DNA of 64,000 nucleotides from Taxawa tesnikishii (nom. ined.) (lineage: Eukaryota > Ascomycota > Dothideomycetes > Dothideales). The translations under genes were made by a program, and so were the position numbers. A model generated the notes under the pieces. It did no database searches. It saw only the letters and a program-made list of their open reading frames with translations, and had not been told where the DNA came from. Every line of letters begins with the position of its first letter. Positions within the stretch are counted from its first letter, which is position 1. The stretch is from NCBI GenBank assembly GCA_030247885.1, contig JAPDRO010000002.1:124001-188000 (forward strand), read 5' to 3'. Shown here piece by piece: positions 4,600 through 59,159 of this stretch.

Positions 4600-5013
4600 A
4601 AGAGACAAGCGAAGCAAGCTACCATGTGAGCTCACTTCCCAAAAGCACCCCGCATATTCGCCGGACATTCATGTCTTATATGTACAGATAAAAGAGCTTC
4701 TCAAGCTGAGACAAGCAGCAGATCTTCTGAACCACAACAGCTCAGTCAACCCACATGAATCCGGGGAGCTCAAAGTTATGGAACCGCCAGCTGCAACCCA
4801 CAGCACCGTTTAGAACACGACTAGATCCCGAGCCAGCTCAATGCACCCCGAGGAGAGCGCAATAATCCAGTCAAGGAAGCCGGAAGACACCTCTAATTTA
4901 TTTCCCTCAGGCAGAACCGCGTTCGAGGACCAGTGGCCCTTTCCGGACGTGACGGAATCGTTTCGGGGAAGGATGTTATTGGTAGTTTGAACGGATGTTG
5001 AAGACCGGGCCTG
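4600..5013. other. Intergenic
   Basis: Downstream region between converging HET and putative secreted-protein genes. A frame continues past the HET stop but has no recognisable content. Nothing else seen. Confidence 0.4.
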
Positions 5014-5563
5014 TCAGAGCACCGACCGAAAAAGCGGACTGCAGGTGCTGAAAGAGGAAGCTGCAGCCCGATCGTCTCTTGCGGACGAATGGCTCGCTGT
5101 ACGGCTTCGGAAAATGGCGGTGACAGCTCGAAACTCTGCATGCGATGTTGCTGCGCAGTGCGACAGTCGTTCATCCATCGTAATGACGGTCTCTTGAAGC
5201 GGACTGCGCCTCTTCGCAATCACAAATCCATTACCTGTTCACCTATCGGCCTTATCGCTCGTTGGAAAGTGTCGTCACGCAAGAACACTGTCGCCGCTTC
5301 CGTTTCCTCCTCTCCGTTGTAATCCGCAGCCGGATTTGAGGCTCGAGGTATGGATCTGAACATGTTGTCCGGCTGGTTGATGATGTTCAACGGTTTTTCA
5401 ATGAACGAGGATTGGATACTTGCAGTCGCGGTGATGGTAATTGATAAAGTACGTGATTGGAGCCCTTGCTTCGGGGTGTCGGAGTTGTGGATTGTCGGGC
5501 GCGCGAGTGCGGTGATCGACAAGAAAACGGTGCCTAGCGTGATGATGGGCAGAGGCGAGCCAT
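5014..5563 (-). CDS. Possible small secreted protein
   Basis: Tentative gene. Translation from the ATG at 5561-5563 followed by one frame change gives a convincing signal peptide: a short basic start, hydrophobic core PLPIITLGTVFLSITALA, then RPTIHNSD. The mature part has an acidic patch (GEEETEAATVFLRDD) and a C-terminal half containing AKRRSPLQETVITMDERL. Two single-base losses (near 5555 and near 5225) are needed; with them the length is exactly 183 codons plus stop. I recognise no domain. Small secreted proteins of this kind are often called candidate effectors, but nothing here proves that. An alternative is that these are unrelated chance frames. Confidence 0.35.
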
Positions 5564-6359
5564 TGCTGTTACGGATGGTTGGTATTGTATAAACTGCGCG
5601 AGTTTTGGGTTGATCGATCTTGGTATGAAGAAATGAGAGATGACTGTCTTTTGCTGCAATTTGTACTTATTCTGATGACGTGAAGCCGGGTGACTAATGG
5701 CCTGAAAAGGGAAGTGCTGTGTTTGAGGATATGACCAAGAGGATTTGACAGGATTAGGGAGTACTCATCCGTCTCTCAGCTTCCCCGATGGCCTGCTGCC
5801 GTGGTCAATACGAAGCCACTGCTCAGAAAGAGCATTCATGATACGATGAAGTCCCGACACTGACAAGACCACCACATCTCAGTCATTGGTTTATCGAATG
5901 GTTGCTCGCTTCTTAAGCAGGAAAACGAAGCCAAATACAGCCCAGGAAACACGAGAAAAACGGCGTGCGGCGTTACAATTCGGACTCGTTTGGCTGACAG
6001 CACGACGCCAACCTTCAGCGAGCAATCGAATCAGGGAAGCGCTTGATGACTGGAGGCTGTGTGAGCTGGCTAGAGTTTGCCCATGGCGTTGGCGATTTCA
6101 TGAGGGCAAGCTGTGTAAGCTGCGGAGCCGAAGAATGTACTGAATGCCTTGGACCTCTGGCGGTAGAGATTCGTAGAAGGAGAGGTGGTGGCCAGCATGC
6201 GGTGAAGCTGATGTAAGCTTGGGCTCGCATGTTCGTTCCTTCGATTACCGTCGTACATGCGACAAGTGCAAGAACAAAACAGGAAGTGGAGGTTATGTTT
6301 CCTCGACAGAAAGAAGATAAACTTTGAGTGACTGTACTGCCGCGTTGAGCGCAGGCACG
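5564..6359. other. Intergenic
   Basis: No recognisable protein gene. Minus-strand frames at 6015-6230 and 6070-6459 partly overlap the tRNA gene and have no domain. Confidence 0.4.
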
Positions 6360-6364
6360 AAAAA
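6360..6364 (-). terminator. Pol III T5 terminator
   Basis: Five T on the minus strand, three bases after the discriminator base of tRNA-Pro. Confidence 0.7.
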
Positions 6365-6394
6365 GTTGGGTCTTGCCGGAGATCGAATCCGGGA

Positions 6395-6449
6395 CTGTGT
6401 TGTTTGTTAGCGAGCTGATTAGAGGTGATTTCTTGTGGGAGACGCTTAC
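6395..6449 (-). other. Spliceosomal-type intron 2 in tRNA-Pro
   Basis: 55 nt, starts GTAAGCGTC, has branch-like CGCTAAC about 11 nt before the end, and ends ACACAG. It interrupts the five-base variable loop (AGG / TC). It contains no TTTT. The first nine bases resemble those of intron 1; the rest does not. Confidence 0.8.
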
Positions 6450-6458
6450 CCTCTCGCA

Positions 6459-6486
6459 TTCAATGGAGTTGTGAACTCAGGGTGGG
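6459..6486 (-). other. Canonical tRNA intron (3' of anticodon loop purine)
   Basis: 28 nt between the loop G following the anticodon and the T closing the loop. It contains CCCT, which can pair with AGGG of the anticodon loop, as expected of introns removed by the tRNA splicing endonuclease. Confidence 0.8.
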
Positions 6487-6513
6487 CCCTAAGCGAGAAT
6501 CATACCACTAGAC

Positions 6514-6570
6514 CTAATTGGGGTATTAGCATTGTTGATGATCGCGGCTGTGGAGTGGATTGATGCTTAC
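6514..6570 (-). other. Spliceosomal-type intron 1 in tRNA-Pro
   Basis: 57 nt, starts GTAAGCATC, has branch-like TGCTAATAC, ends CAATTAG. It separates tRNA nt 9 from nt 10, so it cuts the A-box; by chance or selection its last bases (AG) restore an A-box-like AGGTCTAGTGG. It contains no TTTT. Confidence 0.8.
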
Positions 6571-6579
6571 CACAAGACC

Positions 6580-7142
6580 GGCTATTGTTGTCACGTGGCA
6601 AAACATTAAAATAATATATGTTATGGCATCAATGCGGAAAGCCATCAAGCGATTGCAGCCACTTCCTTATTTCCGGCTCGCCTGACCTGCCGTCCGTGTT
6701 CCCACTTCCACATCTCGCATTACCTGCCGTTCGTGTTGACTGAGCCTCGTTTAGGCTGTCTCCCCGACTGAGGCACTCGTTTCATGACGGCTATGGCTGC
6801 AGCAATCCATCCCCCGAAAAGGCAACCCGGCCACTGGCAGGCGGGGACCCCAGGACACTCCAGGACCCCACGCCGGGGTATGCGGGTGATCTCGCGCAGA
6901 GGTGGCTGTTGATAGGTCCATCCGCACGTCCTGTCATACCTTTCTCCAAGTTTGCTGCATGCAGTTCGGGATATGCTTATGCGAAATCCATGCGGTTGGA
7001 CGAAGCAAGGAGGAGAGATCTGGGGTCATGAGGTTGGGGTATATATGGTATGACTCCCACATGTGGAGCAGTGGTTCATCTGTTCGCTGAACGTTGTTGT
7101 CCCACTGAGTGAGTTGAACGAAGTTAGAAACCGTTTGTGGTC
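6580..7142. other. Intergenic between tRNA-Pro and MFS transporter
   Basis: Shared upstream region of two divergent genes. A TATATAT-containing stretch near 7040 could belong to the transporter promoter. No further feature seen. Confidence 0.35.
6606..6622 (-). promoter_or_regulatory. TATA-like element upstream of tRNA-Pro
   Basis: ATATATTAT-rich tract about 30-40 bp upstream of tRNA nt 1. Upstream TATA elements are used by Pol III in fission yeast tRNA genes; here one would place initiation ahead of exon 1 despite the split A-box. This is inferred from position only. A CACGTG hexamer lies between it and the gene, at 6592-6597. Confidence 0.4.
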
Positions 7143-9268
7143 ATGGCACGCAAATATCTTGGAGGGTCCGGCGAGAGCCTTACCGTATGGATCTCGATGT
7201 AAGTCTGGCTTTCACTGTATAATTCTCAATCTGTAAAGGGCGCCAGCGAGATGTACTCAATCCTCGTTCACACTCGTTCGACACAATCACCTGCGGAGCG
7301 GTGACCTTGTCTATGGACCAGGTGCCCTCAACAGCCAACCCTGCTGACGGCATTGTAGAGCAGCGTCAATTGTGCTCATCTTCTACGGCTACGATCAGGC
7401 GAGTACACCCCTGCAGGCCGTCGACCTCTTCTATTGACCTAAACAATCAGGGCGTCTTCGGAAATGTCATCATCAGCGAGAACTTCCTCGAGACCTTCGG
7501 GCACCCATCTGCAAATATGCAGGGCACCATGACCTCCATCTACAACATTGGATGTTTTATCGGCGCCATGTCAACCATCTGGACCGGTGATATCCTAGGC
7601 CGACCTCGCCAGATCATCGTCGGCAGCACCATCATTGCCATTGGCGCCATCATCCAGACCGCCAGCTACAGCGTCGCACAGATGATGGTGGGACGTATTG
7701 TGGCCGGTCTGGGCACTGGCATGAACACCGCTACTGCGGGCGTATGGCAGGCGGAAACGAGCAAGATGAGGAGTAGAGGCAAACTCGTCATTATCCAGAT
7801 GGTCGGTCGCATCCCATCCCCCGTCTGTCTGTTTCGCAAAATGCTCAGTTGCTGTTAGGCCAATTGCATCACCGGCTTCTCAATCTCCAACTGGCTGACC
7901 TTGGGCTTCTCATTTGCTCCAAGGGACGTGGTGTGGCGCTTCCCGCTCGCCTTCCAAATCTGTATGTTTCCCCTTCTATAGAGACGGCTTCGTCCTGACT
8001 CCCACAGTTTTCACCCTCTGCATCTACGCCACCTGCCCCTTCCTTCCGGACTCTCCCCGTCTTCTCATCCGTAAGGGCAAACACCAAGAAGCACTCGAGG
8101 TGATTGCGGCACTCCAGGGCCACGGCGCAACCCCCGACTCTCCCTCCGTCCGCGCACAGTTCTCCGTCATCAAGGACGTGTTGGACCGCGAGCACATGAA
8201 CACGTACTCATGGTGGCAGCTGATCACCGGCAGAGGGCCTGCCGGCGTGCTTCGCCGCATGATTCTGGGCGCATGGATGCAGGCCATGAACCAGATATCC
8301 GGCATCAACGTGCGTCCTCTTTCTCTACACCCCGGCTGAGTCGCAAGCCACCCCCAACAGTCAAGCCCAAAGAGCTAACATTACTCCAACAGGTAACAAG
8401 CTACTACATGTCCTATATCTTCATAAACTCTCTCGGCATCTCGGACCTTCTCTCCCGCATCCTCGCCGCCGCGGGCTCCGTCGACTACCTCCTCTTCGCC
8501 TGCATCGCCTACTTCGTCATCGAGCGGTACGGCCGCCGCAAAGTCATGATGTGCAGCGCGGCCGCCTGCTCCACCTGCTGGATCGTCATTGCCATCACGC
8601 AAGGCCTGGTCGAGAAAGGCGGAGATTCATACGTGCTGGGAAGCGCGTCTGTGGCCTTCTTTTTCGTCTTCTTTGCCAGCTTTGGAATGGGTGTTTTGGG
8701 GGTTCCTTGGTTGGTGAGTCTGAATGAGGAGGACGGGAGGGGAAGAGAAGTGGACAGAATGGGTGGGCTGACGTCCGAGCAGTATCCGACCGAGATCAAC
8801 GCGCTCGAGATGCGCACGAAAGGAGCCAGTCTGGCCATGGCTACTAACTGGATCATGGTAAGCCCACCTCCATTTCTTTCCCTGTCCGTCAACTCAACAC
8901 GCTCACAATTGCAGAACTACGCCGTCGTCCAAGTAACCCTCCCTGGAATCTCCAACCTCGGCTACCGCTTCTGGATCATCTGGGCCGTCATATGCTTCGC
9001 TTTCATCCCCATCACGTACCTTTTCTACCCGGAAACTGCGAACAGAACTCTCGAGGACATCGACAGGTTCTTCGAAACCCGCCCAGGCATATTCGTCAAC
9101 GGGAACAAGCTGGCGGTGCAGCTGCACCGGCCGCAGGAGTTTGTGGAGATGGATGACAGGATCGCGCGGGAAGAAGAGGAGGCGAGGAGGAAGGAGGACG
9201 GCTTTGCAGAAGAGAAGGGAACCGTAGAGTTGGGTGTCGTGGAGGACGTGGAGAAACAAGAGAGGTGA
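7143..9268 (+). CDS. MFS sugar transporter
   Basis: Eight exons (7143-7198, 7359-7398, 7451-7801, 7859-7961, 8008-8309, 8393-8713, 8783-8857, 8915-9268) give 533 residues in one open frame. Sugar-porter motifs are clear: FYGYDQGVFGNVI in TM1, the D-x-x-G-R-x loop motif as GDILGRPRQ, the PESPR-like PDSPRLLIRKGK before the central loop, QISGIN in TM7, ERYGRRK in loop 8-9, VPWLYPTEI in TM10 and PETANRTLEDID after TM12. It belongs in the plasma membrane and moves a hexose or related sugar by proton symport; the substrate cannot be read. Intron 2 has a GC donor (GCGAGT) and intron 3 an unusual GTCGGT donor. The C-terminal tail is rich in Glu and Arg. Confidence 0.9.
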
Positions 9269-23241: not shown

Positions 23242-23357
23242 AAGATTAAAAAAAGACGATTTGGACAATCAGCCACTCGAGCACTGAAGTCAAGGCACAC
23301 AACGCGTGAGTACGTCCCTTCGGCCACATCCGCCGCTACAGATCGCCCTTGCTAACC

Positions 23358-24137
23358 TCAATAAGCCCACACAGGAGGCGAAGGCCCTGTGTAATTGTGC
23401 GTAGCCAACCCATCCAACGCCGCACACCCCGTCTGGTTGAACGCTGGCGTGCGGGCGAACAGCTGGGTGGCGTTGGCGTTGTACTCGGCGGGACACGCAT
23501 ACAGCCCGCCCACGTCCTCGTCCGGGCTCTTGAAGGTCCAGTAACCCTCGGGAGCACCGCAGTCGTAGCGCGGGTCGTCGCGGGGACACTCCCGCGAGCA
23601 AGGAGAGGCGCAGGAGGAGAACGGGGTCCAGGTCCAGCCGAGGTAGTACGGATACGCGCCCGGCGGGATGGAGTGCGAGTGCTGCACCGTGATGCGCACG
23701 GCGCCGTTGACGTCGACGTAGAGTTCCTGGCCGCCGGGGACGAGCGATAACTTTTGCCGAAAATGCCCCTCGTCAGTCCCCCCTTTTTTCCGGCGGAAAC
23801 TCGTGCCCCGGCTACGGGATGCAAAACTTACCGGATACAGCGATCCCGCCAACGCCGTCTGGGTGCCGTTGGGACAGCCGCCGCTCTCCTGCACCACGGA
23901 TGGGCAGTAGGAGCTCACGTTCGCTTGACCGATGATGAAGGCGCCCCCGCCTTGGACCTTGAGGCCGTTGATGGTCGCGTCGTCCTTCTTGTATGCGGTT
24001 ATGGTGTACTGCGAAGGCAGCGTGTTGTTGGAACAGTGCCGGCTCGGTCGATTCGCTACATGTGTCACGGCGGCAGCACAGGACGGTATGCCATGGGCGA
24101 GAACGAGGAAGACGGGGACCAAGGAAGTGACGAGCAT
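23358..24137 (-). CDS. Secreted cysteine-containing protein (IgE-binding-protein-like)
   Basis: Two exons (24137-23832 and 23750-23358) give 232 residues. The signal peptide is MLVTSLVPVFLVLAHGIPSC. The mature protein has a beta-rich core (QYTITAYKKDDATINGLKV, GGGAFIIGQANVSSYCP, QELYVDVNGAVRITVQHSHS) and a Cys/Trp segment (GWTWTPFSSCASPCSRECP ... DCGAPEGYWTFKS), then ends YTGPSPPVWAY. The pattern resembles fungal secreted proteins annotated as IgE-binding protein; the biochemical role is unknown. The 81-nt intron keeps the frame open, so unspliced RNA would encode 27 extra residues. Expected at the wall or outside the cell. Family name given with caution. Confidence 0.68.
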   Translation of the reverse strand: MLVTSLVPVFLVLAHGIPSCAAAVTHVANRPSRHCSNNTLPSQYTITAYKKDDATINGLKVQGGGAFIIGQANVSSYCPSVVQESGGCPNGTQTALAGSLYPVSFASRSRGTSFRRKKGGTDEGHFRQKLSLVPGGQELYVDVNGAVRITVQHSHSIPPGAYPYYLGWTWTPFSSCASPCSRECPRDDPRYDCGAPEGYWTFKSPDEDVGGLYACPAEYNANATQLFARTPAFNQTGCAALDGLATHNYTGPSPPVWAY

Positions 24138-28129: not shown

Positions 28130-31100
28130 TCACAATCCAGCTATCTTCTTAATCCCTCCAATCCAACTACTTCTCTTCCCGCCCGGCGCCGCAGCCGGTC
28201 TCCCATCAAAAGTCTTGACGCCCATGTCCGCATACCCCATACTGTTATGAACCCCCTGCTTCCTGTTGCCCGCGCTACCGTCACTGCTCCTCACACCCTC
28301 GCCCTCTCTGAGTCTACGGTCCTCTCGCCTGCGCCTTCGTCTCTCATCAGCGTCGTGATCATGGCCATGAGACTCCCTCGGCTGTCTGGAATCCCGGCGA
28401 CGGTTGCCACGCAGCTCACGTGCTGTCTTGTTGTCCATGTCCACTTCCTCTGTGTGGTCGGGCGCGAAATGGACGGGAGCGTCGACGATGGTGCCCTCGA
28501 CTGGTGGCGGCGGCGGCGGTTCTTCGTTCACGGAGTGCACCCACGAGGAGGTTTTGTCGCCGCCCTTTTGCAGGTACGGGCGGCCTTCCGGCATCGGCGC
28601 AGTCGCAGCGTGGGCGTCGTAGGCCGGATGTGCGCCGTTGCGGGCATCAAAGTAATCGTCCACGGGCTGTTCGGTCCGTCGGCGTGAGGGACGAGGTCGC
28701 TCTTTCTCGCGCGGTGTCTGAGCCTCCGATCGCCGGCGTCGTTCTTCGCGTCTGGCACGACGTGCAGCGTCTTCATCTTCGGCGCGATCCATATGTGACT
28801 GTCTCCGTGCAGACGCAGTGGGCCTGCGGTGAGAGGATTCATCGTACTCCCGAGCCCTGTCCTTCTCACGCCTTCGTCGCTCTTCGGCATCTCGGCGTTC
28901 CTGTTCTTCAGCGGCGAGCTTGGCCTCGCGGGCTGCGCGTCGGGCACGGCGTTCCTCACGTCGGCGTTCGTCCGCTTCCTCTTCATCTCTGATGCGGCGG
29001 TCATGCTCGTCCCGGGCTCTGCTCTTGCTCTTGTGGTCTTGGTGAGCTCCGCGATCCCTGTCCCGTCTCCGAGCTTCTGCCTCCGCTTCCATGGCTTCCA
29101 GCTCCCGGCGTTTGGATCTCTTCGCAGCGCGACGAGCTTCGGCGTCTTCGTCTTCTGTCGGGCTCATAATAGGTGCGGCATCGGTAAGACCATCAGTCTC
29201 GGAATGCTTTCTGGAACGATTGACCTTTCTGGCTTCGCGACGGAGACGCTTGGAGCCGTCGTCGTCGTGCGCAGTCGACGTGCGTTTGCGCCTGGATGCA
29301 CCATCTTCGCTTTCGTAGCCCCTGCTTCTGTGGCGGTCATCCTGGTCCTTTGGCATGAACGAGCCGAAGAAGTTCTTTAACCCGGCCGTTTTCTTTGCGC
29401 TAGAAGCCGAACGTTTGACGGATGGCCGCGGCGGAGATACCACAAATGCAAGGTCATCCGGACCAGTGACTACTTCATGGCCATCTGACGGTCCTGGGGC
29501 ATCCACAAGCACAGCATCATCCGTGGGAAGACCACCGGACATGTATGCAGACTCGCGCTTGGACCTGCGGGAAGACTTTTCTCTGCGGCGGCTGCTGGAG
29601 TGTTCAGCGTCATCGGGACGATCTACCATAACGATGTCATCGTCGACTGCGTACGGGTCCGGCGGACCGCGCGACTTGCGCTTTTCCTTAGTGGAAGCGC
29701 GACGCGATACCGACGGTCTAGAGGTCAAGCCCATCAGCTTTGCAGCTTTGGCCCCAATGTCGTCCGGAGGTGGCGATATCAGGCCGTGGTCCACATCCAT
29801 CGATGCACGCTTGCTGCTCGACCTAGGTGCCGCCGACGAAGACTGGCGCATCGACCTGGACCGGCTGGGGGTGGCACCCAGGCCGAACATGCCGGAAAGG
29901 CTCATGCCTCTCGACGTGCTTGGCCTGGATTCTCTACGCTCGGTCTTCGCTGCCCTGTCCGAATCCGAAGACTTGGAGTGTTTGTCCGTGACATCGCGAT
30001 CGGTGGCTTTGCGCGCAGATTTTGACCGACTCAAGCCAGGCGCAGCGGAGCGCTCTTTGACGGGCGAGGTAGCAGTGTCGTCCTTGGACTTGCGCTCCTT
30101 CTTGGGCTCCGGTTTGGGGGCAGACCAGAAACCCCAGGAAGATGCACCTTGATCACGAACGACCTTTGGTCGCTCTTTCTTCGCGGACTTTGGCTCCGAT
30201 TTGGCTTCCTTTTCCGGTGGTGGAGTAGGCAGCTTTGCAGGGCCGTCATCCATATCCATAAGATCGTCGAAAGCAGCGGGCGCGGCCGGCGGTGGAGATG
30301 GTGGCGTTGGCGTCTTCTCGACCTTTGCCGGTTTCGATTCCTTCGTGCTGGACTTGGTGGATTTCTTGTCCTTGCTGCTAGACTTCTTCTCTCCTGGAGG
30401 TGGCATGGTTGAAGGTAGAGCAAAGTCAACAACAGGCGGACGCGGCGGAACGTCCACGATGAAGTCGTCGTCCGGGAACCCACCGGGAACTGGGGTCGTC
30501 ACAGATGGGACGGCGTGATCAATAGACGGCGGTGACGCTTCCTTGTCCTTCTTCTTGGATGGTTTCGAGGCGCTTTTCTTGTCTTTGGAGGAAGACTTCT
30601 TCGCGGGCGGCTCCTCGACAGGAACGAGGAAAACGGGCTCCGGTTCCAGCTGTGGCTCTTCAACAACTAGCGGCGCAATAGTATCCGGGACGACTATGAC
30701 AGGCTCGTCTTTCTTCTTCTTGCCGTCACCACCTTGCAGCGCTTTGATTTTGTCGGCGACAGAGCCCTTTGCGCCAGCCTTGGACTTTGAAGACTTGGGC
30801 GGCGGCATGGCTGCTGACTGGGAGAGTTCGTCAGCAAAGGAAGTGACTTCTGGCATCTTCTCCTCCTCGTCAACAAACGTAAACATGTGATTGGCCGACG
30901 AGGGAGGCGCAATCTCCGCAGCAGCGGGTGTGGCTTTCTTGGTCGACTTTAGCGACGCACCCCAGAATCCCCAGCCTGCAGCCTTCTCGGCTGGAGCCGC
31001 GACCACCGGTTCCGATTCTGGGACGATTTCTGGCACGGGCACGGGCCAAGGCTCGGTCGCGGCGATCGGTTCTGGCTCTGGCGGTGGTGCGGCTTCCTTG

Positions 31101-34100
31101 GACTTCTTGCTCTTCTTCTTGTCCTTGCTGCTGGTCTTCTTGGTGGGCGCTTCATCGACAATTTCCAGGATCTCGTTCGGATCGTCTGCAAGTGCGGCAG
31201 CAAACGCAGCCTCATCGGCCTTGCGCTGTGCTTCCTCGGCTTCCTCCCTCTCTATGCGCTGTCTCTCCTCCTCCTTTCTCTCCTTCTCTTCCTTTTCCTT
31301 CTTCTCCTTGTCCTTCTTCGACTTGGATTTCGAGGAGCTGCCGAAGAAACCCCAGCCGGAGCTCTTCTCTTCCTTCGGAGATTCCTTTGCTTCCTCGACA
31401 ATCACGGCAGGCTCTTCTACGACGACAATAGGTTCCGGCTCAGGCTCGAAAGGTGGCGGCGGGGGCGGAGGCGGCTCAAGCTCGGCCTTGCCTTTCTTGC
31501 CCTTCTTGCCTTTCTTTGTAGTAGTCGTGGCAAAACCCCAAGTATCGTCCATCGGTGGCGGGTCAGGAGCAATGTCAACAAGCGCGGGAGGCGGCGGTGG
31601 CACGTCAATGACGGGTTCTTCAGCTGCAACTTCTCCCGGAGGAGTGGGGGCTGGCGGTGGGGCAGGGTCATCAAGCAGACCACCCTTCTTGCCCTTCTTC
31701 TTCTCCTTCTTGCCAATGTTTCCCCACATGCCCCAGGTGTCGTCCTCGGCAGACTTGGACGCCTCCATCGAGTCCGGTTGCTGAACAGGGATATCTGGGC
31801 TGGGCTCGATGACTTCGACGAGAGTGTCCTTCTTGCCCTTCTTCTTCTTTTTGGTGCCAACGCCCCATCCGCCCCCCACTCATCTTCCTCAGCCTTGGGT
31901 TCGTCGACGGATTCAGGGACCATGATGGTCTCATCAACAAATGCGGGCTCAGGCTCCGGTTCGGGCTCTAGCGGAGGTGGCGGAGGGGTTCGGGCTCAGC
32001 ATTTTTGCCCTTTTTCTTCTTGTCTTTCTTCGAAGTCGCACCCCAACCAAAAGACCAATCGTTGGTCTCTTCAGCAGCAGCTTCAGGAACAGCAGGTGGA
32101 GGCGGTGGTGCTGGGGGTGGAACTTCCTCAACCACTGCGGCGGTACCCTTCTTGCCTTTCTTCTTTTTGCCAGTGTCTCCCCAGCCAGTACTAGCCCAAG
32201 GATCATCTGCTGGTGGCTCTTCCGGCACAGCAGGGGCAGCTTCGACAATAACAACGGGTTCTTCTGCAGGCGTTTCCTCAAACGTGAAAGCGCTGCCCTT
32301 CTTCTTTTCTTGTCTTTCTTAGAGGCTGACGTACCCCAGCTGAAGTCATCCACAGGCGCTGGAGCCTCTGGGACCGGCTCTGGGTCCGGTACAACCACAA
32401 TGGGCTCTGGCTCTGGCTCTGGCTCGGGTTCCACGGCACCTTTCTTGCCCTTCTTCTTCTTGCCAGTCGTGGTAGCAAACCCACCCCATGTGTCATCTTC
32501 TGCCGATTTTTCGGCGGGGGCTCCGAGATTGACAGTAGTGACGTCTCCGGTGCCTGCGTTATCATCAAAATTGAAATCAAACCCGTTCGACTTCTTTTTC
32601 TTGTCCTTTGTGCTTGTGCCGAAGCCGCCCCATGTGTCGTCTTGCTTGGGCTCAGCATTTACGACTGCGTTGTTTTCCGCTCCAGAGAAGTTCCAATTTG
32701 AACCCCAGCCTGTGCCGCCGCCACCTCCGCCTGAACCCCACCCACCGAACCCGAATCCGGATGACTTGTTCTCTGTCGAGCCTCCCAAATCAAGGTCCAG
32801 CTTGGGCGCAGCGCCTCCCAGATCAACTTCGTCGAAGTTGCTTTCCGCAGGAAGCTCCTCGACAGGTGGAGGCGGAGGCGGAGGCGGTTCAGGCTCTGCT
32901 TTACCCTTCTTCCCCTTCTTCTTCTTGCCGCCTGCGGGCGCGAAGCTGGCCCAAGGATCATCTTCCGCAGGGGAGGATCTGCAGCGAGAGGTGGCGGAGG
33001 CGGAACATCAATGACCTCTGGCTCAGGCTCAGGTGGTGGTGAGGCGACGCCACCCTTCTTCTTCTTTTTCTTGTCCTTTGCCGTTGTTCCCCAGCTGCCC
33101 CACGTGTCTTCCGCTGCCGGCTCGGGTTCCGGTACGACGACCACTTCCGGCTCGGGTTCAAGCGCAGTCTCTTCCTTGCCTGCTGCTTTCGCTGCTTTCT
33201 TGGCCTTCTTCTTGTCTTTTGCAGACATTCCCCAGCCGCTGCCCCAATCGTCAGCTGCAGCCTCAGGCTCGGGCTCCAGCACAACTACCACCGGCTCGGA
33301 CTCCGGCTCCAGTTCAGGCTCGGGAGGTGGAGGTGGTGGCAGCGGTTCTGGCTCAGCGTTCTTCCCTTTCTTTTTCTTCTTCTTGCCACCCGCAGGAGCA
33401 AAGCCGCCCCATTCATCGTCTGGGTTCGCGTCGCCGCCAGCACCTGCATCAGCGCCTATGTCGCCGCTCGCAGCAAGGGGATCCTCGCCTTCTTCCGCCT
33501 TCTTCTCCTCTTCGTCTCCCGCATCGTCCCAGCTGAACGCATTCTTCTTCTTTTCTTGTTCTTCTTGCTGTTTCCGGCGGCCCAATCGTCGTCATCGCCG
33601 CCTCCTCCACCGCCGCCTCCTCCATTTGGATCGCCGCCGTTTCCACCAGCTCCTGCACCGTCGCCCGCGCCGTCTCCCCACCATCACCATCGCCATTCTG
33701 ATCACCGCCAGTCTCGTCGGGCTTCTTCTCTTCTGGTTCATCCCATGCGTTCGCCGCTGCGCCCTTCTTCTTCTTTTGGCGTGCTCGCGAAGATTGTGTG
33801 ACGCCGAGAAATCGACTTTCGGCGATAACGGGTCCGCCTCATGGTGCGATGATGTCGCGTCTTTGCGGTTTAGAGAATAGTGGGGTAGGACAGTGAAGCT
33901 GCTGTCCAGAGAGACAGTAGCGAGGCCCTCCGTGGAGGTGTAGTCTGGAGGCGCATCCTGTATGCTGTCTTCGTAAGACGGTGGAGGTTGTAGCTCGGGT
34001 AGCGGTAGGAGGCCGGGTAATCGTAGGATTATGTCCACAGCAGTGACACATGTAGAATACACCAGCATTGACTGCTGAAAAGCATGCAAGACGTTAGCAA

Positions 34101-34284
34101 TGTCGTTGTGGTCCCATAACTGCTGCTGGCGCAAGTCCCAGCTCTTGGATTTGCACGCAACGCCGGCGGCTAGAATGACCGGGTAGAAGCACTCATCCAA
34201 CCCAGTCTTCGTCGGCAAGATGCTTTGTTCTCGAGGTCCGCTGGCGAGGAGATCGGCAGAGTATGATGCGACAGAAACTGCCAT
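28130..34284 (-). CDS. Giant WG/poly-Lys repeat protein (about 2,050 residues)
   Basis: One gene spread over several frames; seven one-base losses, all of the same sign and in A/G-runs, give a single reading of about 2,053 residues from MAVSVASYSADLLASG to the end KRSSWIGGIKKIAGL. The first 130 residues form a plausible folded domain ending with PPPSYEDS (a PPxY-like motif). Then about 13 modules follow, each an acidic stretch with a Trp-Gly core and a lysine run, for example DDTWGGFATTTGKKKKGKK, DDWGSGWGMSAKDKKKAKK, DDTWGMWGNIGKKEKKKGK and SSGWGFFGSSSKSKSKKD, separated by Pro/Glu/Val linkers (EPEPEPEPIVVV). The C-terminal third is Ser/Lys-rich, then a long charged Arg/Glu coiled coil. No enzyme domain. 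WG repeats in disordered acidic sequence recall Argonaute-hook proteins, but that role is only a hypothesis. Confidence 0.7.
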
Positions 34285-35876
34285 TGAGTGCTTGCGATCT
34301 GTTATTTGCGTAGAGTGAAAGCCTTGGCAGCATTGACGGCGGTTCGGGCGAGCTAGCAAGCCAACGGTAGGACTAGACACCTATAAGGCGATTAGAGCGT
34401 AGGTAGAGGGTAGCGGTCGCTGTCGAGTGCCAACGAGACAGAGACAGAGTGTGCAACGAAGCGGAGAAAATGGTGTTGAGAGGCGATGCGGTCGTGGATG
34501 CATGCAATGCAGAAGGCTGGATCACAAGGCAAACGGCAGGGGAGTAGCCGAGAAGCGTGCGATGCGATTCGACCCCTCCTCTCCAAACAGGGGCTTGCGC
34601 GGTTTGTGTATCGAATCAAGGACGCCAATCAAGAAGCGAGCACGGCTGTGTCACCCTTCCTCAGCCCGTCACATCCAAAAGCAAGCGTGCAGTGCAGCAC
34701 AGCGCAGCGCCTGGAACAAGCGGCTGATATACGAGCAAGGTGTTGTTTTGTTGTCGGAGAAAGATTTTCATGCATCGCCCACCTCCCTCCCCTCCCTTCC
34801 CTCCCTTCCCTCCCGCCGCCGCATGGCCCTCACGCAGATGCACGCCAGGCCGTCATGTTATTTGCCCGCTGCAAGCACTATTGCGCTATGGGCATGATGC
34901 AGGGCCGCGCTGTTTCGAGTCGGGCGTGAAGCTGAGCTGTCCTGCTTCCTTCACCGCAACTTTGATGCGCGCGTTGCGAACGGCGGTCGAACTACGCAGT
35001 CAAAGTACTGGGTTAGGTCTTCCAAAGGCGCCCGTGCACACGAATGGGGTTGCCCGCTTTTTGGGTCTGTCTCATTCCGAGTCCGGCCGGCCCACTCGCT
35101 GGTGCGTGATTGGCGCACAACAACGACGAGAGGGTGTGCTCCGCTTTGGTACAAATACCTCGTGCAACACTCTTGTTGTCAACGGAAGTGGATCTCAGTG
35201 ATGCTGTGCGATATGCACGAAAACCCAAGGCACGCACGTATGAGAAGGCAAGTCGTCAAACGTGACCGCCGACTGCCCAGCTGTTGAGGACAGGACGCGT
35301 ATGCCACTGCCGCATCACCGAACGATATGTGTCACGGATTGCGAACAGGTGAAAAGAGGCTGCTTCGTCCACCTCATGGCCGGAGAAGGGGCACCTGGAT
35401 CTTTCGAAACCGGCAGATTCATCCGACGCACAATCGTCCATCCTCTACTGCTGCATAGAGTGCAGACGCTCCTCTTCCAACGCCAATGCCTGCCGTACCT
35501 GCTTGGCCGAACCGAAGGTGTGCCTGAGCCTGCTCGTACTCTTCAGTCTGGCCCGAGTTCCGCATTCCCACGGGAGTCTTCAGAAGGAAGGAAGGAAGGT
35601 GCTGTGGGTGTAGATGGAGAGAACTGTGATGCTTCGGGGCGCCGCGCTAGTAGGAACGGTCAGAGCTAGGGTGATCAGATGTTCCCGCCGTGACTGCGGC
35701 TATCACGCAGAGCTTCATGTGGCCTGGCGGAAACAAGCAAGACCGGAATCTGAATAAGGCCGGGCATGCTACTCGCTCTCCGGCATCCACAGGTCTTGAA
35801 TTCATTGCCTTTTTCTGGTGGCCCTCTTACATTCTTTTCATTCACTCTCCTCCTGCCTTTCCTTAGTCTCGAAAAA
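34285..35876. other. Intergenic
   Basis: 1.6 kb without a supportable gene. Contains a pyrimidine tract (34782-34814) and several Arg/Cys-rich chance frames on both strands. Confidence 0.4.
34782..34814. repeat. Polypyrimidine (CCCTT-like) tract
   Basis: Thirty-odd bases of C and T only, with repeated CCCTCCC and CCCTTCC units. Confidence 0.7.
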
Positions 35877-53171: not shown

Positions 53172-54283
53172 GTGCCCATCGGTTATCACACCGCTTGTTT
53201 CGCTCCCTCAAATCCAGCTATATGGACGTTATGGAAGGCATTGTGGTATGGACACACCAGCATCGTGAAGATACCGTGGAGCCAAGCACAAATCGATAGT
53301 TGGGACGACGCGATCTTGAAGTTCATCGCAGAGAACAACTTTTTCGGTCTTGTCTGGATCATCACGACAATTGACACTAGACAAACGACAACTCTAGGTG
53401 TGCTTTTTCTGGAAAAGAAGGATCCCAACTTGTTGGAGACACTGCTCGGTATTCGAGAATGGCCGAGAAACGCACTCAATCACTGGTTGATTTGGGTTGC
53501 TCGCGAAGGGTTCGTCGATGCGATACAGCCGTTGCTCAAAGCCGGAGCGGATGTAAATGCAAGCATTCGAATAAGCTCGTTCCAGAGGCTCAAACGTTTA
53601 TCCCTCACGAAACATCACGTCCTGACTGCACTTCAGGCGGCAGCGTATGAAGATCATCTCGAGACCGTGACAGCTCTTCTGGCAGCCGGAGCGCATCCCA
53701 ATGCGCCTGTTTCTTTCTCTGTCGGAGACCACCAAAAGGCACTCTATATCGCAGTACAAAGAAACGATCTGGCGATGGCGCAAACTTTTCTTAAAGCTGG
53801 TGCTGATATGCAAGCAAGAGAGATCCCGAGCGGTCGTACTGCACTTCATGAGGCGATCTTAACCCTAGATCCGAGATGGTGTATGCATTACTCGCCACGG
53901 GCGCGAATCCCCACGCCCGAAGCAACAACAACAACAACAGGCCTTTGCTCCACATTGCAGCGAAAACGGCCAACCTGGATGTAATGAGCATGCTAATTGC
54001 CGAAGGTGCGAAGATTGACGCAACAGATGACAGCGGTACTACCGCGCTTGTTTATGGATCTCGCGATGCTCAGGACCTTCCCCAGCCCTACGTAGTACAG
54101 CGGCTGCTTGCAGTTGGAGCAGATGCTAGTCAAAGAGATGAGAACGATGGCCGAACCTTACTTCACAAATGGGACGGCGTCCTAGTAGACATACTGCTTG
54201 CAGCGGGGGCGCGGATTAACGCAAGAGGTTCTTCCGGCAACACCTCACTCCATGTTGTAGTCACTTCACTCTTAGACCGGTGA
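53172..54283 (+). CDS. Ankyrin-repeat protein abutting the transposon block
   Basis: About 370 residues after one missing base near 53872. The N-terminal 130 residues are unassigned (DSWDDAILKFIAENNFFGLV). Then ankyrin units follow: REGFVDAIQPLLKAGADVNA, TALQAAAYEDHLETVTALLA-AGAHPNA, KALYIAVQRNDLAMAQTFLK-AGADMQA, RTALHEAILTLDP, VYALLATGANPHA, PLLHIAAKTANLDVMSMLIA-EGAKIDA and NTSLHVVVTSLL. The start is unresolved: no in-frame ATG lies ahead of the conserved part, and an ATG pair near 53152 with an intron or frame change is likely. The frame stops at 54283, within a few bases of the AT-rich block, mid-repeat, so the original gene was probably longer. Function unknown; such proteins mediate protein binding. 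Confidence 0.65.
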
Positions 54284-54352
54284 CTTCTAGTTCGGGAGAA
54301 ATCCTATTAAAAGTGTAAAAGGCTAATTAGTATTATTAAAACTAACAAGTTA

Positions 54353-54867
54353 TAGTAAGCTATAGTAAAGGAGTAATAAAGCTTTTAACTTTTTTATAAT
54401 ATAGTTAATTATTAAAACTAAGCTTACTTTATTTTCTTTACTAATAGCTTTAATATACTATAAATTTTACTTATAGCTTCTTAACTTTATAGCTTATATA
54501 AGAAAAAACTATAGAGATTAGTAAGCTATAGTAAAGGAGTTAAATTACTTTTAATATTTACTATAAGGGTAGTTTATAGTAACGTATAAAACGCTAGGAC
54601 TCGGTAGATTATAGTAGAGACTAATTATTATCTTTCTCTAGGGAGCCTCGAGCTCCCTTATAAGCGAGACGAGTTCGCTTCGTAGGCGAGTCCTAGGCGT
54701 TACGCAACTACCCGTAATATTTACTTAAAAAGATACGTATAAAAACTAAGCTTTATATAGTTTATTTAATAATATCTAGAATTCTTTTTAAACTTTACTT
54801 AAACTTTACTATATAAAGTACTTTTATAAGTAAAATTAGTAAAGCTTAGTAAGCTATAGTAAGGAAA
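54353..54867. repeat. Three dispersed copies of a TAGTAAGCTATAGTAA motif
   Basis: Near-identical copies at 54353-54376, 54519-54543 and 54847-54867, inside the RIP-mutated left part of the Copia fossil. Could be remnants of LTR subrepeats. Confidence 0.55.
54639..54712. other. GC-rich island with hairpins inside the AT-rich block
   Basis: Inverted repeat GGGAGC-CTCGA-GCTCCC followed by AGCGA...TCGCT and several CpG sites. It stands out from surrounding DNA of very low GC content. CpG sites are poor RIP targets, which may explain survival. Confidence 0.5.
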
Positions 54868-55138
54868 TAATATTAACTTTTACTAAATAAAGTTACTTAC
54901 TATAACTTAACTTACTATTATAAGATAATAGCCGCCTAGTTCGAATAGATAGTTATATAACTTATTAAGTTAAGTAAAGAATTTCTTTATTTCCTAGTTA
55001 CTATTATAAATAACTTAATTAATTAATAAGTTATAGTTAGTTCTACTATATATTTAGTTATAGTTAAGTACTTAGTTTAACTAGTTATAAGCCCGGGTTT
55101 ATAATAGCTTACTACTTAATTAAGTATAGTATATTTTA

Positions 55139-55380
55139 TACTTAAAAGAGTTATAATAAGTAATAAGACTAGTATAATTAATACCTATATTAAAAGGGCT
55201 ACTATAGGTAGTAAGACTAATATAATTCCTATATATAAAAGGGCTACTAGAAGTAGTAAGACTACCTATAGAAGTATACTAGTACTTAGAAGAGCTATAA
55301 GGTAGTAAGACTAAGTATTATAAGGTATAGTAACTAGAAGGGCTATAATAAGTAGTAAGACTAGTTATATTAAGTAAAGT
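55139..55380. repeat. Degenerate tandem repeat, about 5 units of 45-52 bp
   Basis: Each unit contains a core like AAGGGCTACTA...GTAGTAAGACTA. It lies upstream of the coding part of the Copia fossil, where LTR or leader subrepeats would be expected. Confidence 0.65.
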
Positions 55381-58300
55381 TCTTTACTATTATAAGCTTA
55401 CTAGGCATTATAGAGCCTACCTTACTTTTATAAATACCGAAGTCTACTAACTTATTACCTTTTCTTTCGCGCTAATTCGATTTTACTATATTATTTTAAT
55501 TTATATAAATAACTATAATAAGCTTAATAGACGAATTTTTTAGTAAGAAGAAGCTTATTCTTATTCTTATAAGAGGAAATTCGGAGAGATAGTTTATACT
55601 TATAAGAGAGTAGTTAATAGGAGAAAATATCTAGTTTATTATTAGGAATAAATTAAAAGAAAAGGAAAGTATATAAATAATAACCTTATCTTTAACTTTA
55701 GGGAAAAGTCTATAATAGTTATATAGCCTCCTACCTTCCCGTTTTATATTTAAGCTAATATAAAAGCTAAATACTAAATTACTATCTATATTAGTAAGGA
55801 TAACTAAGACCGAATTAAGGACTTAAATATAGCTATAACTAAATAAAAGGAACTAAGGAATAAATACTTAGATAAGCTTTAAATAATAATAAGGTAATAC
55901 CTATAGGATTTTATTAACTATAAAATAAGCCTAGAGATAACTATAAATAAAGTATAAACTTAACTAGTTAAGTTAAGTAAGAAGGTAGCTACTACTTAAC
56001 TAAATATAATAGCTATTAAGAAGCTAAGTAAGAGACTTTAGTAGCTACTCTAAGCTTTACTAAATAAATATACTATCGTAAGGGATACTATTAATACTTA
56101 AATAAATCTACTAATTAAGAAGTTAATCCTTAAGCTTTAAGAAAAAGAAGCTTCTCTTAAGGCTAAGGCTAGCTAATCTACTCTTCTTATTAAAAGGTAT
56201 TAACGATAAAAGACGTCTAATAAAGGAAATCTTAGTTACTAAATTAAGCTAAGTATTATCTTTATAATAGTAACTACTAACTAAAAACTACCCCTTTCTT
56301 AAAGATATAAGAACTATAGTAAAGAATAAAAGGAAATAGAAGAAGTCTTAAGCTAAGTTAAAGAGGAGTAATAACGACATAATAGACTTAATTAATAAGC
56401 TTTATAAAGAAGTTATAAACTTAAAGTAAGAAAGAATAAACTTAAAGTAAGAAAAGAAAAAGTATAAAGCCTTTAAAGCTAAGGAAACTTTAACTTTAAG
56501 TAAATCTTAGACTATAAAGTTAAACTTATTAAGCTAAGATTAAGAGTCTATAGACCTTATTAAGGAAGTTACTTATCTCTTTAAGGAAGTAAAAAGTAAA
56601 GTTCCTTACTAAAGCTAAGCCTCTAATACTAATATAAGTTTATATATAACTAACTAGCTCTAGTTATTTAAAGGACTACTCCGAGATATCCTAAGATAAA
56701 AGATTATAATAAGAAGAGGAATTCTATTCTTAAACTACTAGGGTATAGTAGAAATAATAAATAAGGATAAGAACTCGATCCTTTTATTAAAGATACTTTA
56801 TATTCTTAATCTTAAAACTAACTTATTATCTAGAAAGAAGATATGCGAGAATAGACTTTATAAGACCTTCGACGAAGACAGTATATACCTAAAAGATAAA
56901 TAAGGAAATGTCGTAGTAAAGGTAAGGTATAAAGGTAGTATTTATATTATAAATAAGATTACCTCGCCGAATAATTAATATACGTTTCGAGCTATATTAG
57001 GTACTTATTAAGGTTTTATTCTATTAAATTTACGAGATAAAATTACTTACTAATAGGTAGAATTTATATAGCTTTAAGAGCCGAGTAATTAGCTAGCTAA
57101 TATACTCGAGGATTTACCGATAAAAGCTAAGGTAAATATTATATAACTCTCGGAGTTATATAAAGATTTAATAAATAGTTCCGAAAAGGTACTAGTAAAA
57201 GACATAGCCTAAAAGTAGAGATACTAACTATAGTATAAAAGGCTTACTTATCTTAAAGCTAAAAAGATTAGTAACTTATATAAAGTTATAATACTTACTA
57301 AACTAATCTAGATTAATAAAAGCTATTAATATAAAATCTATGCGCTTACTAAGATTAGGAATAAGAAGGAACTTCTCTTAATAAGAAAGCTAGAGGTACT
57401 TAACCTAGTTTATATAAATGTTTATAAACTATTCGAACTATTATAATAAGGGTATATTATATTCCTTTTTATTATAAATAACTACTTAAGGAAAGCTTAA
57501 ATCTATAAACTAAGGACTAGGGATAAAGCTCCTACTTACCTTTAGTAATAAAAAAGAAGGTAAAACTCTAAGGTAAAGCTAAGCTTAAGGCTATTAAAAG
57601 TAATAATACTTCTAAGCTAAAGGAAGTCTTTTAAGAGTAAGAGAAATAAGAGGGAGTTTAACTATAGTTTACTATTACTTAGATATCTTTATAAAATAAA
57701 GTTATTAAAAGAAGTAACTAGACTATAGAGTTTAATATAAGGGTAATACTTAAGGACATAGGGCTATTAAACGAGTTTTAGTTCGAAGTAATATAAACTA
57801 ATATTTACCTTAGAAACCTTATATCTAACGGACTAGTTATTAATAGTAAATAGCTTAGTCTTAAGGAAGTTTTTACTAAAATTACCCTATTAATCGACTA
57901 TATTAGAGTCTAAGGTTATAAAGTTATTACTTATATAAATCTAAAATTCCTACCTTTATTCTTAAGATAAAATAAGCTAATAAATAGAAGTAAAGTTAGA
58001 GTCTTTATAAGCTATATTAAAGGTACTACTAAGTAATAAAAGCTCTAAGTACTAGATATAAGAAAGATAATTATAAGTAGAGTAGTTAAGTTCTTTAAGG
58101 ATAAAAAGGGAGGGAATATTAAGCTTAATATACCCGTTAGATTTACTCTAAATATAGTACCCTAGAGGAAGTTAATTAGTAGACTAAGGAGGTAGCTAAT
58201 AGAGCCTATACTAAGTATTTATAAGAATATACTATAGTAAGAGGAGCTTCCTAAGACTATAGATTAAGAGGAGTCTTATATAACCTAGTAGGAGGAGTCT

Positions 58301-58951
58301 CTACTAAAAGAACTATAATAAGAGGAGCGAGAAATAGTTATTTTAACTTAGCTAAAAACCGTATTTTCCTACGTTAAGATTCCTACCCTAGTTTTACTAA
58401 AGAAGGTCTTCTCTTACGTCGAAATCCTAATACTTAAGAAAATAAGAGGGAATCTTAATAAAGACGAGTTAAAAATTAACTATAAGTTAACTAAGATCTT
58501 TAAGGCTCTTATAGCTTTACTTATAGAAAAAGGATAAAGTTAAGTTATCGCTCTTTTTAGAGTTAATTAAGTAGAGAAAAAGTTTACTTTTATAGTAAAA
58601 GGTAAGATAAATATCCTAATTCCGTAAACTTATCTAAAAGCTATTTATAACTCTATTTAAGGAGAACTCTAAAAGGAAGCTATTAAGAAGGAGCTAGATA
58701 CTTTATAGGTAAACGTAACGTTTAAAATAGCTACCTTACTAAAGGGGTATAATATTATATTAAGTAAATAAGTTTTCGATACTAAGTTTAACTTAAATAG
58801 ATTTCTAAATAAGTTAAAGGCTAAGCTAATAGTAAGAGGATTCTCTTAAAAGTATAGTATTAATTTTAAATATACTTTTACTCTTATCTTAAGGTATAAT
58901 ACCTTAAGAGTCTTCCTAGCTATTATTATAATTAAGGATCTAAAGTACTAT

Positions 58952-59159
58952 TGTGGTGGGGTAGCCGCTGGATAGTCATGGGTTGTTAGTCACGTAGAAG
59001 CTACCTTTGATTCCTACTTATTTAGTCCGCACACAAGATAGTCACTCATTCAATCAACAACTGTTCTTTCTACGTCTTGTTCTTGTCTTATGTCTTACTA
59101 ACTGCTGTCTCCATTACTACTTGCGTAGCTGCCTTCTGCAGTCTTGACCTAACCCAACA
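58952..59159 (+). repeat. Left LTR of the Gypsy-type element
   Basis: 208 bp beginning TGTGGTGGGGTAGCC and ending CTAACCCAACA. The left edge coincides with an abrupt change in base composition. The right LTR and target duplication are outside the window, so the exact ends are inferred from the TG...CA rule and the following leader. Confidence 0.65.

Follow-up and report, generated by a model that had tools for sequence, protein, structure and literature searches.

Can a nuclear tRNA gene be interrupted by introns of the spliceosomal type and still give rise to a processed tRNA? The question is raised by a proline tRNA locus at positions 6368-6579 of the window, by which we mean the whole 64-kb stretch of DNA that was analysed. 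The locus lies on the minus strand, running from 6579 to 6368 over 212 nt in unspliced form, and consists of four exons of 9, 27, 9, and 27 nt that add up to 72 nt. Exon 1 (6571-6579, minus strand, as are the other parts of the gene) supplies nt 1-9, that is, the 5' acceptor strand together with T8 and G9. It is followed directly, after nt 9, by a spliceosomal-type insert of 57 nt (insert 1, 6514-6570). Exon 2 (6487-6513) contains the D arm, the 5' strand of the anticodon stem, the anticodon AGG and G37, and is separated by an intron of 28 nt (6459-6486), located where nuclear tRNA introns ordinarily sit (37/38), from exon 3 (6450-6458), which holds the 3' strand of the anticodon stem and the start of the variable region. 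A second spliceosomal-type insert, of 55 nt, interrupts the variable region (insert 2, 6395-6449), and exon 4 (6368-6394) completes the molecule with the rest of the variable region, the T arm, the 3' acceptor strand and the discriminator C. These coordinates and pieces agree with those of the earlier note on this DNA, with the strand being minus; its distance of 190 bp between the two strands of the acceptor stem has to be corrected, the actual separation being 197 nt.

When the four exons are joined, the pairing potential of the 72-mer is complete, with 20 of 20 cloverleaf pairs (7 in the acceptor stem, 3 in the D stem, 5 in the anticodon stem, and 5 in the T stem), and ARAGORN calls the joined sequence as tRNA-Pro(AGG). 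The description of this 72-mer as a perfect tRNA-Pro(AGG) is upheld by the pairs and by the call, with the exception of pair 53-61 of the T stem, which is A-U and not the usual G-C, both letters being unusual yet still paired. A G53-C61 pair is close to invariant in nuclear tRNAs and forms part of the Pol III B box. The locus is described here as an atypical tRNA gene, in which A53-U61 breaks a near-invariant, not strictly defining, feature.

ARAGORN made no call on the unspliced 212 nt, on window positions 6001-7000 or, in a default scan, on the whole window. When the 28-nt intron alone was retained in the 72-mer, the program misplaced it and called a tRNA-Ser(TGA). A scan at an 80% threshold returned 187 calls, none of which is the tRNA-Pro gene as described, and a scan with long introns allowed returned one spurious call; both outcomes were taken as noise. 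Rfam gave zero matches at the gathering level across the window, and at E values of up to 10 it gave 3 matches within 6300-6660, none of them to tRNA.

An intron-free counterpart was available on L001, a contig that is binned with a bacterial MAG and that served solely as a comparator. In collections without fungal genomes, exact tRNA-Pro core patterns gave one match among the genome contigs, which is L001, and 0 matches among the viral contigs; a search of plasmids was likewise empty. The matching gene, at 4242-4313 of L001, is a eukaryote-type tRNA-Pro(TGG) that lies in AT-rich sequence within a MAG named Haloplasmataceae, and L001 is probably a misbinned eukaryotic contig. Its tRNA-Pro(TGG) runs uninterrupted through both unusual insert sites of the window gene. 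It is identical to the 72-mer at 37 of 38 nt over nt 8-45 and at 55 of 72 nt over the whole length, and its pair 53-61 is G-C.

The ends of the inserts are informative. With repeated bases at the joints, four cut phases for insert 1 and two for insert 2 yield the identical 72-mer, and exactly one phase of each places GT and AG at the ends of the insert. The middle 28-nt insert has a single cut phase, after G37, and it is not GT-AG. In the GT-AG phase both inserts begin with the donor GTAAGC and end with the acceptor TTAG (insert 1) or ACAG (insert 2), and each has a candidate branch site, GCTAAT in insert 1 and GCTAAC in insert 2, whose branch A lies at a distance of 12 nt from the 3' end of the insert. 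Both sites fall within the fungal branch consensus RCTRAY and within the branch-to-acceptor range of 6-36 nt that are given in section 3.2 of PMC5832005. In insert 2 a further TCTAAT, which looks unused, lies 24 nt upstream of the 3' end.

The frequency of such signals by chance was estimated with random segments, drawn from both strands of the first 53 kb of the window and placed in the insert sites, which passed if they read GTRWG...RCTRAY (in the 6-36 nt range)...YAG in any allowed phase. At the site of insert 1, 40 of 400,000 segments passed, and at the site of insert 2, 5 of 400,000, giving a joint chance for the signals of both inserts of about 1e-9 if the two are independent. The claim that the 57- and 55-nt inserts combine GTAAGC with CTAAT or CTAAC and a terminal AG is thereby confirmed, to a degree beyond chance, and the assignment of the two as putative spliceosomal-type introns within an otherwise intact tRNA gene is well supported at the level of sequence.

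The two inserts had also been said to be exactly like the introns of nearby protein genes. For comparison we used a control set of 11 introns from protein genes of the window, each verified through its reading frame, of which three belong to the gene of the AMP-binding enzyme, one to the sugar transporter, two to the P450, two to the GH3 enzyme, and three to the amino-acid transporter. Six of these were spanned in open frame by script (AMP-binding 3/3, sugar transporter 1/1, P450 1/2, and GH3 1/2) and are confirmed by Pfam domains across the joints; the three amino-acid transporter introns, the second P450 intron and the second GH3 intron were assigned by visual inspection of the translations in all three frames. 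The set does not include additional introns near 3.1-3.3 kb (HET gene), 7.8 kb (sugar transporter) and 17.9 kb (amino-acid transporter). Control candidates were listed with patterns that demand a CTRAY site, and introns without CTRAY are therefore absent; the likeness of the controls' branch sites to those of the inserts is partly a product of selection, because the picking patterns required that motif. The alignment comparison with the inserts used 12 introns, whereas the scoring matrix was built on the set of 11, without 23306-23374, the frame of which is unverified; intron ends differ between the two sets for amino-acid transporter intron 2 and GH3 intron 2. The sugar transporter intron at window positions 8714-8782 is 69 nt long and leaves the frame open, so that it is readable as 23 extra residues.

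The 11 control introns range in length from 49 to 69 nt, and the distance from their branch A to the intron end ranges from 9 to 17 nt; the insert lengths of 57 and 55 nt fall inside this size range. With a matrix derived from the 11 controls only, insert 2 obtains a score of 23.6, which is the 5th among 17,834 GT..AG pairs of 45-80 nt. Insert 1 obtains 15.0, a score that is reached by 199 of the 17,834 pairs, training introns among them. Its low score is mainly due to its branch motif, CTAAT, compared with CTRAC in all 11 controls. Insert 1 is the weaker of the two spliceosomal-type inserts, and the likeness to nearby protein introns holds for insert 2 and less so for insert 1.

The composition of the inserts differs from that of the controls. 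A+C amounts to 68 and 71% in the inserts vs 38-63% in the 11 controls, a difference that holds in the 12-intron set too, and G to 12 and 13% vs 15-48%. If all 13 introns were alike, the chance that both inserts top the A+C ranking would be 1 in 78, a figure that is attached to a difference spotted after the fact. The longest T run in either insert is 2. Having few G and few T, the inserts would be expected to pair little with the tRNA and to carry no termination signal, and their A+C-rich, G-poor make-up would be suited to a Pol III transcript in which the tRNA fold needs protection.

How the inserts may have arrived was also considered. Introner-like insertion, proposed in the earlier note as one explanation, would account for new introns in unusual places, but it is unsupported within the window: the two inserts are unlike each other, aligning no better than shuffled sequences whose ends were kept (z = -0.5), and within the 64 kb neither has another or a sequence-related copy. 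The repeated GGT at insert 1 and the single repeated G at insert 2, which underlie the phase ambiguity, are no more than splice-site overlap needs. An intron-like segment at 23306-23374 (frame unverified) gave the top value of 24 comparisons, a z of 2.45 in its alignment to insert 2, which 0 of 200 shuffles reached; this likeness was taken as chance.

A different account is that inserts 1 and 2 are ectopic tRNA introns that are cut by the tRNA endonuclease, such as red algae and archaea have, and read GT-AG by chance. In its treatment of such genes, PMC3978253 describes multiple and ectopic tRNA introns in Cyanidioschyzon and ectopic ones in the Guillardia nucleomorph, many of them without a defined bulge-helix-bulge. 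No bulge-helix-bulge was found at the joints of insert 1 or 2 in any cut phase, under strict or relaxed rules, the best central pairs being 3 of 4 for insert 1 and 2 of 4 for insert 2, in a test of limited power in which one of two strand arrangements was tried. The control, namely the 28-nt intron at 37/38, gave 4 of 4 central pairs and itself fell short of the flanking-helix limit, and 0 of 272 background positions passed. In the minimum-energy fold, the CCCU of the 28-nt intron pairs with the AGGG of the anticodon loop. Given in addition how rarely random segments reproduced the splice signals at the two sites (40 and 5 per 400,000), we consider ectopic endonuclease-cut introns to be very improbable.

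We give next to no credence to the idea that inserts 1 and 2 are remnants of self-splicing group I or II introns. Bacterial and organellar tRNA genes do contain introns of these groups, but a catalytic core does not fit into 55 or 57 nt. Rfam has no intron-family match at the locus, and for bacterial tRNA genes the precedent of group I/II-type introns is cited in PMC3978253.

The surroundings of the gene were inspected for transcription signals. The mature 3' end is followed, from the 4th nt onward, by a Pol III terminator-like run, TTTTT (6360-6364, minus strand), and there is no TTTT inside the 212-nt gene body; counted on both strands of the window's first 53 kb, T5 has a density of 0.00066 per nt. 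On the upstream side, a TATA within ATATATTATTTT (6615-6618, minus strand) stands at -39 from the mature 5' end, and according to the corresponding passage of PMC3978253 upstream TATA boxes matter for the tRNA genes of some plants and fungi. CAA occurs at -11 and -8 from the mature 5' end.

The internal promoter is altered at both of its boxes. The A box is split by insert 1, and the AG of the insert rebuilds all but its first position, at a distance from the mature 5' end that is 57 bp greater than usual; the resulting A-box-like element (6505-6515, minus strand) consists of this AG, as its first two bases, joined to GTCTAGTGG. TFIIIC directs the placement of TFIIIB, and with the A box moved by 57 bp TFIIIB would be positioned within insert 1 if the TATA-like element does not assume this role. 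The B-box position reads GATTCGATCTC (6379-6389, minus strand) and is off the consensus GGTTCRANNCC at nt 53 and 61. The B box is thus weakened because pair 53-61 is A-U instead of G-C; a perfect GGTTCRANNCC B box occurs 0 times in the window.

A damaged Pol III promoter is what one might expect if a Pol II transcript crosses the locus, in which case the inserts would be introns of a non-coding RNA and the tRNA would be excised from the transcript or would be a mere tRNA-like domain. Spliceosomal introns normally belong to Pol II transcripts, and the locus shares sequence with two open frames on the same strand, 153 and 129 aa long. These frames are, however, without a Pfam match above the curated cut-off (0 families, and one match at E 0.051 that stays below its cut-off), the four exons make up a tRNA and nothing else, and the gene body is free of TTTT while T5 follows right after the 3' end. 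We therefore regard a Pol II origin of this kind as quite improbable.

The protein genes of the window give the setting of the locus. Among the 40 open frames scanned, those next to it are a HET-domain gene and a sugar transporter, and more distant parts of the window hold an AMP-binding enzyme, an amino-acid transporter, a NatA auxiliary subunit, a P450, a GH3 enzyme, and an argininosuccinate synthase. The NatA auxiliary subunit scores 855 bits to 5nnp vs 514 bits to 4kvm, which we take to be the Chaetomium and the fission-yeast protein, respectively, so that the host is likely to be a filamentous ascomycete. Positions 28130-34400 are GC-rich and filled with many long overlapping open frames on both strands, one of them of 1249 aa, and among the 5 of these frames that were scanned no Pfam family was found above the cut-off. 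An AT-rich island extends over 54.0-60.4 kb (54000-60400), with about 25-39% GC in 2-kb steps, and after it a frame near 61.9-62.4 kb has a match to a gag-type aspartyl protease. The 54.0-60.4 kb block has a TpA/ApT ratio of 1.82 and a (CpA+TpG)/(ApC+GpT) ratio of 0.35; these dinucleotide indices are strongly of the RIP type, in keeping with such a host.

RIP was also tried as the cause of A53-U61, where the changes are of the C-to-T type. It was rejected, since the flanks of the gene do not have RIP-type ratios and neither site is in a CpA context when compared with the consensus.

The main rival to a processed tRNA is a recently disrupted redundant copy, that is, a tRNA-Pro gene that two intron-like insertions turned into a silent pseudogene, with exons that have not decayed so far. 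Fungi usually carry several copies of tRNA-Pro(AGG), and the departure of A53-U61 from the near-invariant pair, with the weakening of the B box, as well as the splitting of the A box by insert 1, are what a silenced copy might display. Yet all 20 stem pairs are intact, including the paired double change at 53-61, and the donor, branch site and acceptor of both inserts are in exact register with the tRNA. The terminator-like run and the TATA-like element are both present, and the flanks at 5001-6300 and 6581-7200 are without the RIP-type ratios of the 54.0-60.4 kb block. Two clean introns at two hinge positions would, moreover, be unexpected from random disruption. Taking both sides together, we judge a silent pseudogene to be unlikely, though a serious candidate.

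The reading that we prefer, and hold to be fairly probable, is that the locus is a nuclear tRNA-Pro(AGG) gene, the precursor of which would contain two short U2-type spliceosomal introns in addition to an ordinary tRNA intron and would be processed. That the spliceosome processes a tRNA precursor had been offered as one of two explanations in the earlier note; what the sequence bears out is the presence of spliceosomal-type introns in an otherwise intact tRNA gene, and their removal is the best reading of it. The positions of the inserts are compatible with processing. The backbone joins the acceptor/T half (nt 1-7 and 48-71) to the D/anticodon half (nt 10-42) at two places, and each of these holds one insert, so that folding of either half is possible while both inserts are still there. 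The computed energies point the other way. For the 72-mer, a fold other than the cloverleaf has the lowest energy (-25.4 vs -23.2 kcal/mol, a gap of 2.2); such non-cloverleaf minimum-energy folds are common for unmodified tRNAs. When the cloverleaf is forced on the full precursor, the energy is -43.3 vs a minimum of -50.9, that is, a cost of 7.6 kcal/mol.

In the maturation that we propose for such a precursor, Pol III would start from the upstream TATA-like element and stop at the T5 run, although Pol II might act in its place as the polymerase. The spliceosome would then take out inserts 1 and 2 by intron definition, and the acceptor/T-arm half would dock with the D/anticodon half. RNase P and RNase Z would trim the ends, and the tRNA endonuclease together with the ligase would excise the 28-nt intron. 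The sequence itself shows how the gene is built, that its parts can pair, and that splice signals and a terminator-like run are present; transcription, the order of these steps, the use of the spliceosome, and a function of the product in translation are what we infer. On balance, we lean towards the view that the tRNA would be made only if the spliceosome, for the two hinge introns, and the tRNA endonuclease, for the third, act on the same Pol III precursor.

If the introns work, the spliceosome would be able to act on a tRNA precursor. If the reading is true, tRNA finders would miss genes of this type, as ARAGORN and Rfam miss the tRNA-Pro locus. Under the same condition the locus would offer a ready test of the entry of introns into non-coding genes, and another of a possible link between splicing activity and the supply of tRNA.

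Several known systems resemble this gene in part. Ordinary nuclear tRNA introns are found at 37/38, where the 28-nt insert sits, whereas inserts 1 and 2 are elsewhere. Interruption of tRNA genes outside 37/38 is likewise described for Cyanidioschyzon merolae and the Guillardia theta nucleomorph, and for C. merolae also the presence of several introns in one tRNA gene, in the sections of PMC3978253 on these organisms. The introns of C. merolae use a bulge-helix-bulge according to that source; here none was found by the limited-power test, and spliceosomal signals are present instead.

Spliceosomal introns in RNAs that are not made by Pol II have been described in the rRNA genes of lichens and other ascomycetes, where the introns are ectopic and of similar size, but in these cases the polymerase is Pol I and the RNA is a large rRNA. 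The spliceosomal intron of Cladonia grayi rRNA is 57 bp, and lichen rRNA spliceosomal introns are removed, one of them (57 bp) also from yeast Pol I transcripts, as reported in the relevant part of PMC8527467. In the U3 snoRNA genes of fungi the RNA is likewise short and structured and the splice signals are the canonical fungal ones, although U3 is no tRNA. Section 3.2 of PMC5832005 records two introns in four U3 genes of three species, with no recognizable homology between the first and the second intron, and according to that 2017 paper no small structured RNAs other than U3 and U6 were known until then to contain an intron frequently.

Fungal U6 snRNA genes likewise have a spliceosomal intron in a short structured Pol III RNA. 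The Pol III precursor of fission yeast U6 is spliced of an mRNA-type intron, and this intron is thought to stem from reverse splicing, according to the U6 passages of PMC10484740. A spliceosomal intron in a nuclear tRNA gene was not encountered in the accessible portions of the open-licence literature, which is no proof of absence: in the Yoshihisa review of tRNA introns the string 'spliceosom' occurs at 0 places (PMC4090602), and a 2026 review still sets tRNA splicing apart as spliceosome-independent (PMC13149111). U6 is itself a part of the spliceosome and a tRNA is not, and the present gene combines two such introns with an intron at the tRNA-endonuclease site. We rate what is new here as an extension, in which spliceosomal introns, already known from genes of structured non-coding RNAs, would now reach a tRNA gene as well.
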